Source: Lentisphaerae bacterium GWF2_49_21
Lineage (GTDB): Bacteria; Verrucomicrobiota; Lentisphaeria; Victivallales; GWF2-50-93
NCBI GenBank assembly: GCA_001804805.1
Contig: MHBH01000032.1
Location: 1 to 64,000 of the forward strand
Direction of reading: 5' to 3'
Length of the DNA: 64,000 bases
The notes beneath the pieces are model-generated. The model was given only the letters and a program-made list of their open reading frames with translations. It had not been told where the DNA came from and searched no databases. Both the position numbers and the translations under genes were made by a program. How positions within the stretch are numbered: the stretch's first letter is position 1; every line of letters starts with the position of its first letter. This document shows, piece by piece, positions 11,733 through 58,446 of the stretch.

Positions 11733-12554
11733 TCAGTACTGGATCATTTTTACGTTTGAAGCAGTGTCGAATAGCCCGTCGGAGTTGAGCGGTTCGACAT
11801 GTCCGTCGAAGAAGGATACATTTGCTATCCGCCTGTGCGTCATGTGTATGCCTCCACCGCCGCCGCCGAGATTCTCTATCAATGTCGTCGGAGAGAAACG
11901 CGCATAGCAATGTTCGAGATAGACGTCGCGGTACGATATGCTGTCCGCAAGCAGTATTATCCCTGCAGGCTTGTCCACAAGCTTGAGATTGTGGAATGAC
12001 CACCAGGCGGCACCGTTTATGATTTCGTGCTTGAACCGGAATCCCTTGGTCGCATAGTCGGTGTCGGATCGAGCCTGGTATATCGCATAGCTCTTCCATC
12101 CGCTGTAGCTTTCCGCGTCATTGGCGTAATATTTGTTTGCAGGACATCCATATACGGCTTTCTTAGTGAGATAATCCCCTCCGGTTGACATGGTGCCGTT
12201 GAGGAATCTGTTCCAGTAGTAGTCCGGCGGACTGTCCCACCTGTGCACTGATACCAGATCGTTGAAGTCGGTGGAGTACAGGAAAAGCGATGTGGTCACC
12301 TGCTTCTGGTTGCTCATGCACAATGCGGACTTTGCCATGTCCTTTGCCCCCTTGAGCGCCGGAAGAAGCATTGCCGCAAGGATGGCGATGATGGCTATCA
12401 CCACGAGCAGTTCAATCAGCGTAAAGCTGCTTGAACTTGCTCTCGTCTTCGCCTGAATCCGGAACGGATTCCTGGCTACGCCGGGCACGGCCACCAACAG
12501 CTCTATCAGCGTAAACGCTCTTTTGCACATGCGGTGATGTAGTAGTATGAACAT
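11733..12554 (-). CDS. Pseudopilin-like protein, H-X9-DG type, with duplicated FTLIELLV motif
   Basis: 273 residues. The prepilin-type helix is [24 protein letters not shown], preceded by a complete extra FTLIELLV copy about 30 residues earlier. Between them is a VPGVAR...AKTRASSSS insert whose DNA can form a hairpin. The C-terminal THRRIANVSFFDGHVEPL is the H-X9-DG motif of this PVC-specific group (TIGR04294-like). Such proteins are made with a leader cut before Phe and are held in the inner membrane or exported by a type II-like system. Their role is unknown. An internal start at 12530 ([12 protein letters not shown]) is equally possible, and neither has a clear Shine-Dalgarno. It is divergent from an AraC regulator. 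Confidence 0.8.
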   Translation of the reverse strand: MFILLHHRMCKRAFTLIELLVAVPGVARNPFRIQAKTRASSSSFTLIELLVVIAIIAILAAMLLPALKGAKDMAKSALCMSNQKQVTTSLFLYSTDFNDLVSVHRWDSPPDYYWNRFLNGTMSTGGDYLTKKAVYGCPANKYYANDAESYSGWKSYAIYQARSDTDYATKGFRFKHEIINGAAWWSFHNLKLVDKPAGIILLADSISYRDVYLEHCYARFSPTTLIENLGGGGGGIHMTHRRIANVSFFDGHVEPLNSDGLFDTASNVKMIQY

Positions 12555-24342: not shown

Positions 24343-25175
24343 ACGTCCAACATCCAACTTCGAACATCCAACTTCCAATGAAGATGAACTCGTGGAAATT
24401 TAAAATTGGAAATCTAAAACTGGGCAAAGGCGATACAGGATGCAGGAATCTGTCGTCTGTCGCCTGTCGTCTGTCATCGGCATTTACTCTCATCGAGCTC
24501 CTGGTTGTCATCGCCATCATCGCGATCCTCGCGGCGCTTCTGCTGCCGGCGCTCCAGCAGGCGAAGGAGATGGCGATCAAGATCCAGTGTGCGAACAACA
24601 TGAAGCAGATCGGGCTTGCAATGCACAATTACCTGACTGACTGGAATGGCTATCTGCCACCGCCGACCGCAAACACAAATGCAGGTGCACCGTCATGGCG
24701 GAGACAGCTCGATCCGGATGACCTCAAGACTCCGCTCCTTTACAGGTGCCCGGGGCAGAAGGGATTTGTCGGAGATGCATGGAATACCGTGCCGGCCACG
24801 ATCTATGGAATGAACATGATGATCCTTCACGTGGAAACGCATGCGGATGTCAGCACCGGCGGAAATCCGCTGGATTTTTGTACGCCGAAGCCGTTCTACA
24901 AGATAAGGGATCCGAGCAAGTGCGGTCTGGTCTTCGAGACCAGGGCCTCAGAGCAAAGAGGCAGCAGTTCGATCATCTGCTGCAAGAGCTCGACCTTCCA
25001 GATCAGCCGTCTCGGAGATTTCACCCGCCATCTGAAAAAGTCAAACCTTGTCTATGCCGACGCCCATGCCGACACGAAAACAGGAAGCAGCAAAAACAAC
25101 TACGATGACTATATCCATCCCGAAGAGGGATTCTACCACCTGTGGGAAGGCAGCGAGACCTGCGTGAATCCGTAA
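24339..25175 (+). CDS. Pseudopilin-like protein with repeat-derived leader
   Basis: 278 residues. The start ATG overlaps the GntR stop, with GGAGG nine bases upstream. The leader ([16 protein letters not shown]...) is unusually long, about 48 residues, and is encoded by short repeated words (CCAACATCCAACTTC, CTGTCGTCTGTCGCCTGTCG). The helix [24 protein letters not shown] follows. The C-terminal motif is [14 protein letters not shown], an H-X9-DA variant of H-X9-DG. Because the prepilin peptidase would remove everything before Phe, the odd leader need not affect the mature protein. The stop TAA is the first base triplet of an AT-rich palindrome. Confidence 0.85.
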
Positions 25176-25198
25176 TTTTCCCGGACGGGGAAATTATA
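25173..25198. repeat. AT-rich palindrome at first pilin-pilin junction
   Basis: TAATTTTCCC and GGGGAAATTA around loop GGAC, with one G-T wobble. It includes the stop codon of the gene ending at 25175. Related to 26089-26115, 29042-29069 and 30208-30236. Confidence 0.75.
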
Positions 25199-25219
25199 AC
25201 AAGATTGAAGGGGGAAGTT

Positions 25220-26089
25220 TTGAAAAAAATCGGGAATCGGAAATCGCCGACAGGAAATAACTTCACAATTATCGAGTTGCTCGCTGTGCCAGCCGTAGCC
25301 CGAAGGGCGAAGGCAAGCTCAATGTCGTTTACGATCATCGAGCTGTTGGTCGTTATTGCGATCATCGCAATCCTCATCGCCTTGCTGCTGCCGGCGCTGA
25401 GCATGGCGAAGGAGACGGCCTATCTTGTGAACTGCCAGAGCAATCTCAAGCAGATTGGGGCGATGATAGGAACTTATACCGGTGACTGGGATATGGTACT
25501 GCCTCCGCCAGCCGCCCATCCGGATCATGCCAACGGCATGAGCACCAGATGGCCTTACGCCTTGTGCGGCTACAAGTCCGGGGAAGGGGCCACAGCGTTC
25601 GCCGCAAAACCTTTTGACGGGAACCATATTATCTTCAAGTGTCCCGGCAAGAGGGGCAGGACCGACAACTGGCTTAATGCAAACAAGGGAAAACCGGCAC
25701 AGTGGTACGGGATGAACCTTTCAATCGCACCGCGCCTTCTTCCGGTCACCTGCACCTGCCCGACGTGTAATGGCGATGGTCCGACAACAGCCGCTACAAT
25801 GGAGACCAATCCCCACACTTATACATGCAAAAATGTGACTTACCTGACCTTCCCTTCAGCCATGGCTCTTCTTCTTGAGACAAAGGAATCCATGCAGTAT
25901 GCCGGTGCACTGCTGATTGCCGCAGGATTCGCATGCCAGCAGAACCAGGATTTTCAAAGACATGTCAACGGAAGCTGTATATTGTTCCTTGACGGACACA
26001 TCGAGAAGCGGAACATAGGCAATATTCCGTTTTCAGTGAGTGATATCGAGTCGAAGAAATTCTGGCGCGGCCGTGATGATGACAATTGA
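25220..26089 (+). CDS. Pseudopilin-like protein, H-X9-DG type, with duplicated FTIIELL motif
   Basis: 289 residues from a TTG start preceded by AAGGGGGA. A GTG at 25142 would overlap the previous gene and has no such site. Residues about 15-22 (FTIIELLA) are repeated 22 residues later in [24 protein letters not shown], with [14 protein letters not shown] between. The DNA of the insert forms GCC-gta-GCCC-gaa-GGGC-gaa-GGC. H-X9-DG motif [14 protein letters not shown]. Both FTIIELL copies share the unusual Ile, which suggests local duplication. Cysteine-rich stretch [11 protein letters not shown] near residue 175. Next gene: secreted glycosidase. Confidence 0.85.
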
Positions 26090-36745: not shown

Positions 36746-37344
36746 TTTATAATCATCCATGGCCAATCTGAAGATTTTCCCGCGAGTCTGGCTTTTACAG
36801 GATTATCAATTATATACTTCTTAATCCTCTCTTCTTCAAATGGAGTTCTGCACCAATGGTCGAATGTTTCAGGGGCCCAGAATGCACCTTTTCTCGACAG
36901 AATTATGTTAGCCTCCCTCGCGGTGTAACCTTTGAAAATGCTGAAGACCTTATTGAAGGATTTGGTGGCTTGTTCTCCAGCGGTCAGTATATGCAAGTGG
37001 TTTGGCATAACAACAGCAGACAAGATTTTCCAGGTGTAATTCGTTTCTATCCAGAGAAGAGAGTCAATGATTAGTTTCGCGACTTTGGGATCCTGTAAGA
37101 ACAAATTATCCTTTGAGTTGTCAAGTATCGAGTCAAGATGGCAAATATAAGTTTCCAAAAAATTATTGCTTGCTCCAGGCTTATTTGATTCCTCCTTTAA
37201 TTTCAGGGTTTTGTTCTTCAGCTCTTCAAGCTCTTGCCTGGGAATTGAATTCTTTAGCCGAATTGTAAGGAAAAAGGAACGTCCCCTGACTGTCCAATGT
37301 GGAAGCTTGCGCCTATAGAAGGAAATAGTCTCTGGATATTCCAT
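36742..37344 (-). CDS. REP-associated tyrosine transposase (RAYT, Y1_Tnp family), second type
   Basis: 200 residues. The HUH motif is in SAVVMPNHLHILTAG (His-Leu-His) and the C-terminal RIKKYIIDNPVKARLAGKSSDWPW is the family's nucleophile-helix region, with Tyr in KKYIIDNP the likely catalytic residue. It is clearly different from the RAYT at 7968-8564. R2 REP elements flank it at both ends (36631-36745 and 37349-37478), and its TAA stop is part of one. The start ATG is five bases from the upstream REP and has no Shine-Dalgarno. It sits between hydA and hydG, on the same strand, so it may be co-transcribed with the hydrogenase genes. Confidence 0.9.
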   Translation of the reverse strand: MEYPETISFYRRKLPHWTVRGRSFFLTIRLKNSIPRQELEELKNKTLKLKEESNKPGASNNFLETYICHLDSILDNSKDNLFLQDPKVAKLIIDSLLWIETNYTWKILSAVVMPNHLHILTAGEQATKSFNKVFSIFKGYTAREANIILSRKGAFWAPETFDHWCRTPFEEERIKKYIIDNPVKARLAGKSSDWPWMIIK

Positions 37345-42825: not shown

Positions 42826-42883
42826 GGGACAGGCTTCCGACTTCGCCCAGGGGCTATGCCGGACACGGAAAGCCCGTCCCTAC
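42826..42883 (-). repeat. Expanded R2 REP element overlapping a stop codon
   Basis: On the minus strand GTAGGGACGGGCTTTCCG pairs with the other arm CGGAAGCCTGTCCC, with an extra GCCC/GGGC hairpin in the loop where normal R2 elements have four bases. The TAG is the stop of the gene ending at 42880. Confidence 0.65.
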
Positions 42884-53749: not shown

Positions 53750-54334
53750 ATGAAAGTTGGCAATAAATTCACGCTTATCGAACTGTTGGCCGTGCCAGGC
53801 GTAGCTCGGAGAGCGAAGCGCTCAAGCAGGTTTACCCTGATTGAGCTTCTGGTCGTAATTGCGATCATCGCGATTCTCGCCGGGCTTATGTTCCCTATGC
53901 TCGGAAAGGCGAGGGACAAGGCGAAGAAGACCTCCTGCATAAACAGTCTCCGCCAGCTCGGAATCGCCGTCAACGCATATGCCGGAAACAATGCCGACTT
54001 TCTCCCGATGGCGGTGCGCATCGGAACTGTTCCCGAAGATCCGATGGCTGTGAACAACATGGTCGAAGTACAGTCGAAGAGGGCCTTCGAGTGCCCTGCG
54101 GACATTGAAAAAAAATATGACGGCATGACTTTCTTTGAGAAATATGGCAGCAGCTACGAGTGGAACGCGTGGCTGAGCGGAAGGAAGATAGACAAGTCCG
54201 AGATCGGCATCCAGAACCTCCAGATATCCGTCCCCATGATGGGCGACGCCAACAACTATCATGGTAAGTTCGGCAGGAACTACATGTATTCCGATGGCAG
54301 CGTCAAGGAATCACTGGAGGTGCTCATTGAGTGA
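53750..54334 (+). CDS. Pseudopilin-like protein with duplicated FTLIELL motif
   Basis: 194 residues. FTLIELLA at residue 6 is repeated 21 residues later in [24 protein letters not shown], with [13 protein letters not shown] between. The insert DNA pairs GCTC-gga-GAGC. The end has H-X10-DG ([15 protein letters not shown]), a slightly changed H-X9-DG motif. The Shine-Dalgarno GGATA is weak. The last codons carry GGAGGTG and the stop overlaps the TTG start of an ABC-transporter ATPase gene, so this pseudopilin is translationally coupled to an exporter, unlike the glycosidase-linked ones. Confidence 0.85.
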
Positions 54335-56302: not shown

Positions 56303-56379
56303 GGGCACTTAGTTCAGTTGGTTAGAACGCTACATTCACATTGTAGAGGTCGCTGGTTCGAGTCCAGTAGTGCCCACCA
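56303..56379 (+). tRNA. tRNA-Val (anticodon CAC)
   Basis: 77 bases with CCA encoded. Acceptor GGGCACT/AGTGCCC, D stem GTTC/GAAC, anticodon stem CTACA/TGTAG with loop TTCACAT, T arm GCTGG-TTCGAGT-CCAGT. The anticodon CAC reads GTG codons. A CCATGC...GCATGG stem-loop follows directly (56377-56410). It lies beside a truncated excisionase-like gene. Confidence 0.95.
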
Positions 56380-58343: not shown

Positions 58344-58446
58344 GGAGGGCGGGTTTTCCAACCCGCCAAGGCGGACCTGCCTTCGCATGGAAGCTACGAC
58401 AAGGCACGCTGGAAAGTTTACCACGCTTAGGCGTGGTCCGCCCTCC
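58344..58446. repeat. Cloverleaf-like palindromic element with GGAG...CTCC ends
   Basis: Arms GGAGGGCGG (58344-58352) and CCGCCCTCC (58438-58446) enclose hairpins GGCGGGTT/AACCCGCC, TGCCTT/AAGGCA with an inner CTTC/GAAG type stem, and CCACGC/GCGTGG. It is 103 bases, the same length as 47439-47541 but different in sequence. Confidence 0.85.

Follow-up and report, generated by a model that had tools for sequence, protein, structure and literature searches.

Candidate mobile cassettes that carry the prepilin motif: palindromic in-frame inserts at the FTLIELL codons of pilin genes in a Lentisphaerae bacterium

The window analyzed here, a stretch of 64,000 nucleotides comprising bases 1-64000 of contig C32 in a 5.9-Mb genome of 91 contigs, contains three pilin genes in which the FTLIELL motif is doubled around an intervening insert, each where an initial annotation of the DNA had placed it. 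The doubling reported for the focal gene is present, with 42 bp between the copies at 53768-53788 and 53831-53851, and the same layout occurs in the two further pilins that the annotation named, at 25262-25348 (+) and 12515-12405 (-). The stems described there, GCTC/GAGC, GCCC/GGGC and GAATCCG/CGGATTC, all lie within a GTA...GAA frame. The features discussed below are as follows.

53750-54334 (+): focal pilin gene
53768-53788 (+): upstream FTLIELL of the focal pilin, read as the original copy from the ordinary pilin codon usage of upstream copies
53789-53830 (+): in-frame insert of the focal pilin, 42 bp, 14 residues
53801-53818 (+): hairpin 1 of the focal pilin, GTA-GCTC-gga-GAGC-GAAG
53820-53846 (+): hairpin 2 of the focal pilin, GCTCAAGCAGG-TTTA-CCCTGATTGAGC, with the downstream FTLIEL codons as its 3' arm (DNA fold and family covariation)
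53831-53851 (+): downstream FTLIELL of the focal pilin, read as element-borne from the type information per codon
53858-53874 (+): near-palindrome ATTGCGATCATCGC(A/G)AT over the IAIIAI codons, also written ATTGCGATCATCGCAAT, kept in pilins with and without an insert
about 25220-26089 (+): second window pilin gene, both motif copies FTIIELL (25142-26089 in the orthologue comparison)
25262-25282 (+): upstream FTIIELL of the second pilin
25283-25327 (+): insert of the second pilin, type A1, 45 bp, 15 residues
25292-25314 (+): hairpin 1 of the second pilin
25316-25344 (+): hairpin 2 of the second pilin, including the downstream FTIIEL codons (DNA fold)
25328-25348 (+): downstream FTIIELL of the second pilin
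11733-12554 (-): third window pilin gene
12515-12495 (-): upstream FTLIELL of the third pilin
12494-12426 (-): insert of the third pilin, 69 bp, VAVPGVARNPFRIQAKTRASSSS
12447-12479 (-): hairpin 1 of the third pilin
12442-12405 (-): hairpin 2 of the third pilin, including the downstream FTLIELL codons (DNA fold)
12425-12405 (-): downstream FTLIELL of the third pilin
36808-37083 (-): Y1_Tnp match, one of 20 in the genome
8088-8324 (+): Y1_Tnp match, the other of the two in the window
58381-58397 (-): copy of the dispersed generic GTAGC/ATAGC..GCGAA repeat, outer stem of at least 6 pairs
42841-42857 (-): second copy of the same dispersed repeat family, outer stem of at least 6 pairs

Window pilins P0001 and P0003 match TIGR02532 and PF07963 above cut-off (NCBIfam, Pfam), and these matches are placed on the downstream copy of the motif. 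P0002 has NCBIfam matches below cut-off that also fall on the downstream copy, and no match in the Pfam search. No Rfam family reached its gathering score over the insert sites of the window. A tRNA gene is also present in the window at 56303-56376 (+). The IAIIAI near-palindrome lies 3-6 bases beyond the insertion point. It is exact in 48 of 117 pilins typed as insert-less. Of these 117, 98 have GCG at the first Ala and 90 have GCA at the second, compared with frequencies of 0.21 for GCG and 0.27 for GCA among the mature-part Ala codons.

The family was compared over 148 distinct pilin N-termini from four genomes of one genus (G000, G001, G002 and G003), a sample biased by the fetching of loci mostly for their inserts. 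Eighty inserts were typed into six sequence types (A1, 12; A2, 8; B, 20; C, 7; E, 16; F, 17), with nine rows of unclear type, some of them genuine inserts, excluded from the counts. The units are mostly about 63-84 bp in length and in frame. Thus, the single palindromic element initially proposed is indeed palindromic and in frame, but is replaced by at least six element types. Protein searches returned at least 150 pilin matches in G000, at least 150 in G001, 59 in G003 and 42 in G002. On the contigs read whole or nearly whole (C32 and C5:1-200000), two motifs are found in 5 of 14 pilins. Wider sampling found an upstream motif in 55/90 pilins of G000 and 22/27 of G003, both biased samples, and in 13/89 of G001 and 0/7 of G002, some of these copies being degenerate or untyped.

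The two copies of the motif behave differently with respect to element type. Among inserts of types B, E and F (n=53), the type information per codon in the downstream copy is 0.24-0.78 bits over the stretch between Thr and the first Val, both included, and 0.26 bits at the second Val (p 0.0045); later codons are not above null. In type B, for example, the last Leu is CTC in 20/20 and the first Val is GTG in 19/20, after which all four Val codons are found. Five of the seven upstream-copy codons in the same set carry no type information above null, the exceptions being weak signals, uncorrected, at Thr (p 0.005) and at the last Leu (p 0.018), and the codon spread of this copy resembles that of pilins without an insert. 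Since the downstream codons follow type and the upstream copy is mostly ordinary, it is the downstream copy that the element carries, which bears out the earlier proposal that the motif is restored behind the insert. The boundaries are not perfectly sharp, given the weak type signal at Thr and the last Leu of the first copy and at the second Val. Judged from these codon patterns, the simplest reading would be a unit consisting of the insert plus FTLIELL(V), bounded near V|V, that follows the motif already present in the target. The insert starts after ELL in A2, C and most A1, and after ELLV in B, E, most F and three A1.

A simple target-site duplication, in which the two copies would be equal at insertion, was considered and rejected, as the downstream copy is type-specific and the upstream copy mostly is not; the repeated FTLIELL differs in DNA between its two copies. 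The FTLIELL DNA of empty sites in 16 filled/empty pairs resembles the two copies about equally, with 15.1/21 for the first and 15.3/21 for the second. The second window pilin has FTIIELL in both copies, which the simple model does not predict. Departures from FTLIELL are found in 18 of 80 first copies, one of 80 second copies and two of 59 insert-less-typed pilins, but this apparent decay of the first copy is partly built in and deserves little weight, because the search pattern required a near-perfect motif for second copies and insert-less pilins.

A serious rival to insertion is short-homology recombination between paralogous pilins, in which inserts spread by gene conversion or template switching and have no mobility of their own. 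A strand would invade via a 16-residue stretch, copy the insert and re-anneal at the 21-bp FTLIELL. The homology for this could come from the at least 150 pilin matches in each of G000 and G001, the FTLIELL on either side of the insert is the short homology required, and the weak dependence on type shown by two codons of the first copy and by the second Val would be in keeping with such events. Against it, over a single codon the type information drops from 0.78 to 0.26 bits, and it then falls to null although the codons vary, and the leaders, judged by eye, seem not to travel with type. On balance we consider this explanation rather unlikely; further evidence bearing on it appears below.

A second structure is absent from the initial annotation: the 3' end of the insert is complementary to the downstream FTLIEL codons, forming what we call hairpin 2. 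Folded as single-strand DNA, the whole units of the three window pilins give z = -2.45, -1.97 and -7.42; the focal unit alone thus provides a modest signal, and the case rests on family comparison. Hairpin 2 scores are 9.9-13.9 by type compared with 5.7-6.8 in shuffles. The region 5' of the first copy scores 6.18 versus 6.07 shuffled (n=80), and insert-less-typed pilins score 6.05 versus 6.06 shuffled (n=59), the latter group including a few degenerate inserts, such as L011:2563, that raise its score. Swapping arms between members of the same type reduced the mean score in all types, from 10.5 to 7.5 in A1 and merely from 13.9 to 13.1 in E.

Base-pair covariation, which the initial annotation had proposed as a test, is present in hairpin 2 of types F, B and the A2-like units. 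These are the sets covered by the counts, on gapless alignments. In type F (17 sequences, 10 pairs) 83.5% of cells are paired with a covariation score of 0.192, although the helix is weak at its inner end, where pair 10 is unpaired in 12/17. The corresponding values are 95.5% and 0.206 in type B (14 distinct sequences, 11 pairs), drawn from the 15 of 20 units with a 60-base insert, and 97.2% and 0.283 in the A2-like set (13 distinct sequences, 11 pairs), which combines the 8 type-A2 units of the genus with 12 from distant genomes. None of 500 shuffles matched the score in any of the three sets, and slid structures pair 19-44% of cells, although relatedness alone may surpass all shuffles where there is no structure and helices drawn from the same sequences tend to outdo slid ones. 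Pairs changed on both sides were equalled by 41 (F), 63 (B) and 8 (A2-like) of 500 shuffles, and further pair types by 230, 303 and 482, respectively. The covarying hairpin is left without explanation by recombination between paralogues. It would also suit hairpins kept for a role in pilin mRNA, in translation or stability, and not for mobility, as hairpin 2 is a covarying structure within a coding region. Orthologues up to 95% identical that have no insert, and insert-less-typed pilins that on average have no comparable pairing, speak against such a role, which we regard as highly improbable.

Hairpin 1, the structure on which the initial annotation was based, is variable, and its pieces are not restricted to pilins. 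The pattern GTAGC-N(3-14)-GCGAAG has three matches in the window versus 0.27 expected, a number reached in 1 of 100 shuffles; two of the three are pilin inserts and the third is a copy of the generic repeat. Of 47 inserts of types A1, A2, B and C, 41 (37 distinct) fitted the pattern of a stem-swap test, in which the inner stems scored 3.80 with their own halves, 2.70 with swapped halves and 2.49 when shuffled. As own halves outscore swapped and shuffled ones, the stems do differ yet remain paired, as had been noted from three examples, with weaker covariation than in hairpin 2. The key hairpin is the FTLIEL-containing hairpin 2, which is stronger than hairpin 1.

Pieces of hairpin 1 were searched for outside pilin genes. 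The A pattern GTGCCNGSCGTAGC lies within pilins in 13/14 matches in G000, 3/3 in G001 (one of them frame-broken, L205), 2/3 in G003 and 0/5 in G002. In an 818-kb sample of G000 that is rich in pilins, the F piece TTCGACAAGCTCAG lies within pilins in 5/10 matches, GTGCCAGCCGTAGC in 7/8 and GTGCCCGCCATAGC in 5/5. Outside pilins, TTCGACAAGCTCAG occurs as a dispersed repeat at L258, L275, L276, L279, L287 and L043/L044. The 818 kb contain 31 copies of the generic GTAGC..GCGAA repeat, which shares the GTA/GAA loop, compared with 0 in one codon-shuffled copy; at least 4 of the 31 lie within pilin elements (L256, L262, L271, L272). This repeat is also nested in frame inside pilin elements at L314, L334, L247, L243, L262 and L022, between GA and A/C of the internal loop, as deduced by comparing L314 with L296, L334 with plain type E, and L247 with L231. 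At L218 a generic repeat is likewise nested, after CTA. Given that hairpin-1 pieces and the generic repeat are dispersed outside pilins, hairpin 1 appears to have been taken from such repeats, and the pilin-specific part would be hairpin 2 together with the motif.

These repeats bring into view a more specific version of the insertion model, in which RAYT/TnpA-REP (HUH Y1) transposases would mobilize the elements as REP-type hairpins. The genome has 20 Y1_Tnp matches, 18 of them above the family cut-off, GTAG stands at the stem foot of hairpin 1 in types A and C, the generic repeat is abundant, and a TTCGACAAGCTCAG piece lies near one neighboring Y1 pair (L043/L044). However, types E and F have no 5' GTAG, the GTAGC repeat is found in the flank of one of the 20 Y1 loci (flanks of up to about 1.5 kb), and the flanks share one 12-mer, at 3/20 loci. 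With so little support in these flanks, REPs driven by the genome's own Y1 transposases were set aside as a candidate, and we think mobilization by such enzymes improbable. No mobilizing transposase or recombinase could be linked to the pilin units in the flanks of the 20 Y1 loci.

Orthologues were defined by reciprocal best matching of the mature part, which yielded 31 pairs; 28 of these link G000 with G001. Empty sites, whose absence would have told against a mobile element, exist: among the 28 pairs, 14 are filled in G000 and empty in G001, 3 are empty/filled (one untyped), 3 are filled on both sides (one untyped on one side) and 8 are empty on both, the G000 side being biased toward filled. 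Type B is present in L265 and no insert in L357 at 95% identity, and type E is present in L323 and none in L387 at 89% identity. At the site where the window gene at 25142-26089 carries type A1, its orthologue in G001 (86%) carries type F. The leaders 5' of FTLIELL have 4-19 of 36 bases in common in 16 filled/empty pairs; orthologous leaders are thus not homologous and the region is often replaced, a point in favor of recombination between paralogues. By eye, some leaders of insert-less pilins seem to be built from other dispersed repeats (window positions 24483 and 42143, in minus-strand count; L269, L274, L285).

Units also stand in tandem. Mixed types occur at L009 (E then A), L011 (A then B), L250 (F then C) and L261 (C then F), and L397 holds an exact 81-bp unit twice in succession. 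This last locus belongs to another genus and is, by its sequence, probably the orthologue of the focal gene, with 90 of 160 residues matching downstream.

Scans of all four genomes with the long cores of types E (27 bases) and F (26 bases), allowing up to 2 mismatches, placed all 17 E matches in pilin leaders, in the same frame and on the same strand, and 14 of 15 F matches in pilin leaders; the other (L452) lies behind FTLIELL, runs into a stop and is read as a truncated pilin. Neither core was found in G002 at this threshold. Confinement of two long cores to pilin settings is also what recombination between paralogues predicts. As to the earlier suggestion of looking for the same hairpin elsewhere than in pilin genes, hairpin-1 pieces are found elsewhere but the E and F cores are not. 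Insert-bearing copies damaged after the insert, with the frame broken or the gene truncated, are seen at L205 and L452.

Discrete unit boundaries, a type-specific downstream copy, covariation, empty sites and tandem arrays are what we observe, together with different elements at one orthologous site and two long cores in pilins alone. The explanation of these data toward which we lean is that the inserts are miniature palindromic cassettes, non-autonomous, each entering pilin and pseudopilin genes as a discrete unit at the end of the FTLIELL(V) codons. Our leaning is unchanged by the hairpin-1 pieces outside pilins, because the argument rests on hairpin 2 and the long cores. The mobile palindromic element at the FTLIELL codons first proposed is strengthened by the empty sites, the type-specific restored motif and the base-pair covariation, but self-mobilization finds no linked enzyme. 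Each unit would consist of a variable hairpin 1 and a hairpin 2 whose 3' arm copies FTLIEL. After insertion, the target's own FTLIELL would remain upstream and join the leader, and the unit's copy would join VVIAIIAIL downstream to make a new processing and transmembrane motif. In type IV pilins, prepilin peptidase removes the leader, and extra residues at the place of the insert would for that reason be tolerated. The enlarged leader would presumably be removed in the same way, and an insert should cost little because the leader is cut off. Movement may proceed via a folded single strand recognized by an enzyme.

The closest known kinds of element are the Rickettsia palindromic elements (RPE) and REPs. 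RPE are described as short palindromic repeats of several families, about 150 bp in length, many in frame within protein-coding genes and located in unrelated metabolic genes (PMC10969869). The pilin inserts are like RPE in being palindromic and in frame inside protein-coding genes. Unlike RPE, which occur in many unrelated genes, the two long cores scanned fall in pilins (E 17/17, F 14/15), and the inserts occupy one codon position and repeat the target motif in one arm of a hairpin. A hallmark of REPs is GTAG at the stem foot of a hairpin of 20-40 bp (PMC3733652, PMC6006769), and the former source describes REPs as mostly extragenic, with those in genes entering varied unrelated proteins. 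At this position hairpin 1 has GTAG in A and C and ATAG in most B, and lacks it 5' in E and F. Unlike the GTAG REP/RAYT system, the generic repeat is at 1/20 Y1 loci and the pilin unit has a second, motif-carrying hairpin. Miniature elements derived from IS200/IS605 have hairpins near both ends and insert at a fixed short sequence (PMC6006769). The two hairpins and fixed insertion site of the pilin unit may be comparable, but the pilin unit carries a whole motif of 7-8 codons, and no autonomous parent was found.

Some integrative elements supply the tRNA gene they enter with a new 3' end, and integron cassettes form arrays. The pilin unit resembles the former in carrying the displaced piece of its target and the latter in that several units may stand in tandem, but it differs from both in being mostly under 100 bp and translated. 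Among the titles listed in a literature search whose scope lay outside subscription journals, none described such pilin inserts. It appears to us an even question whether these units constitute a mobile cassette of a new class, restricted to a single family of protein-coding genes, with a terminal hairpin made from target-motif codons, that hands over a fresh copy of the motif, leaves the old copy to the leader, stacks in tandem, takes hairpin 1 from dispersed repeats and is present in two or more classes of the phylum.

If this reading is correct, the units would be selfish DNA adapted to one protein signal, with the prepilin leader as a safe harbor and the signal's own codons forming one structural end of the element. 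As each of two genomes has at least 150 pilin matches, and sites occur both filled and empty, insertion, stacking and loss would become countable. For many pilins of this group the annotated N-terminus would be element-derived, which should serve as a warning in its interpretation.

The distribution of the units was surveyed with a pattern of two intact FTLIELL motifs 36-66 bases apart, for which a reversed control gave no match. The pattern is present in at least 11 of 137 genomes of the order and at least 11 of 387 of the phylum, in overlapping sets, and these counts are a lower bound because the first copy was restricted to TTC. A 17-base pattern run over named genomes was discarded, since the matches listed were mostly chance-like and in unrelated organisms. 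Beyond the order, A-like units are found in G368 and G419, of the same class, and in G308, of another class. Families f3 and f4 of the order possess a different motif-carrying unit, VKGSHLCCDRE...AHGQGKA and variants of it (L402-L405, L407). In 5 of 6 loci this unit ends in GGGTAAAGC-NN-GCTTTACCC, where TTTACCC again represents the FTL codons. L406 carries yet another insert.
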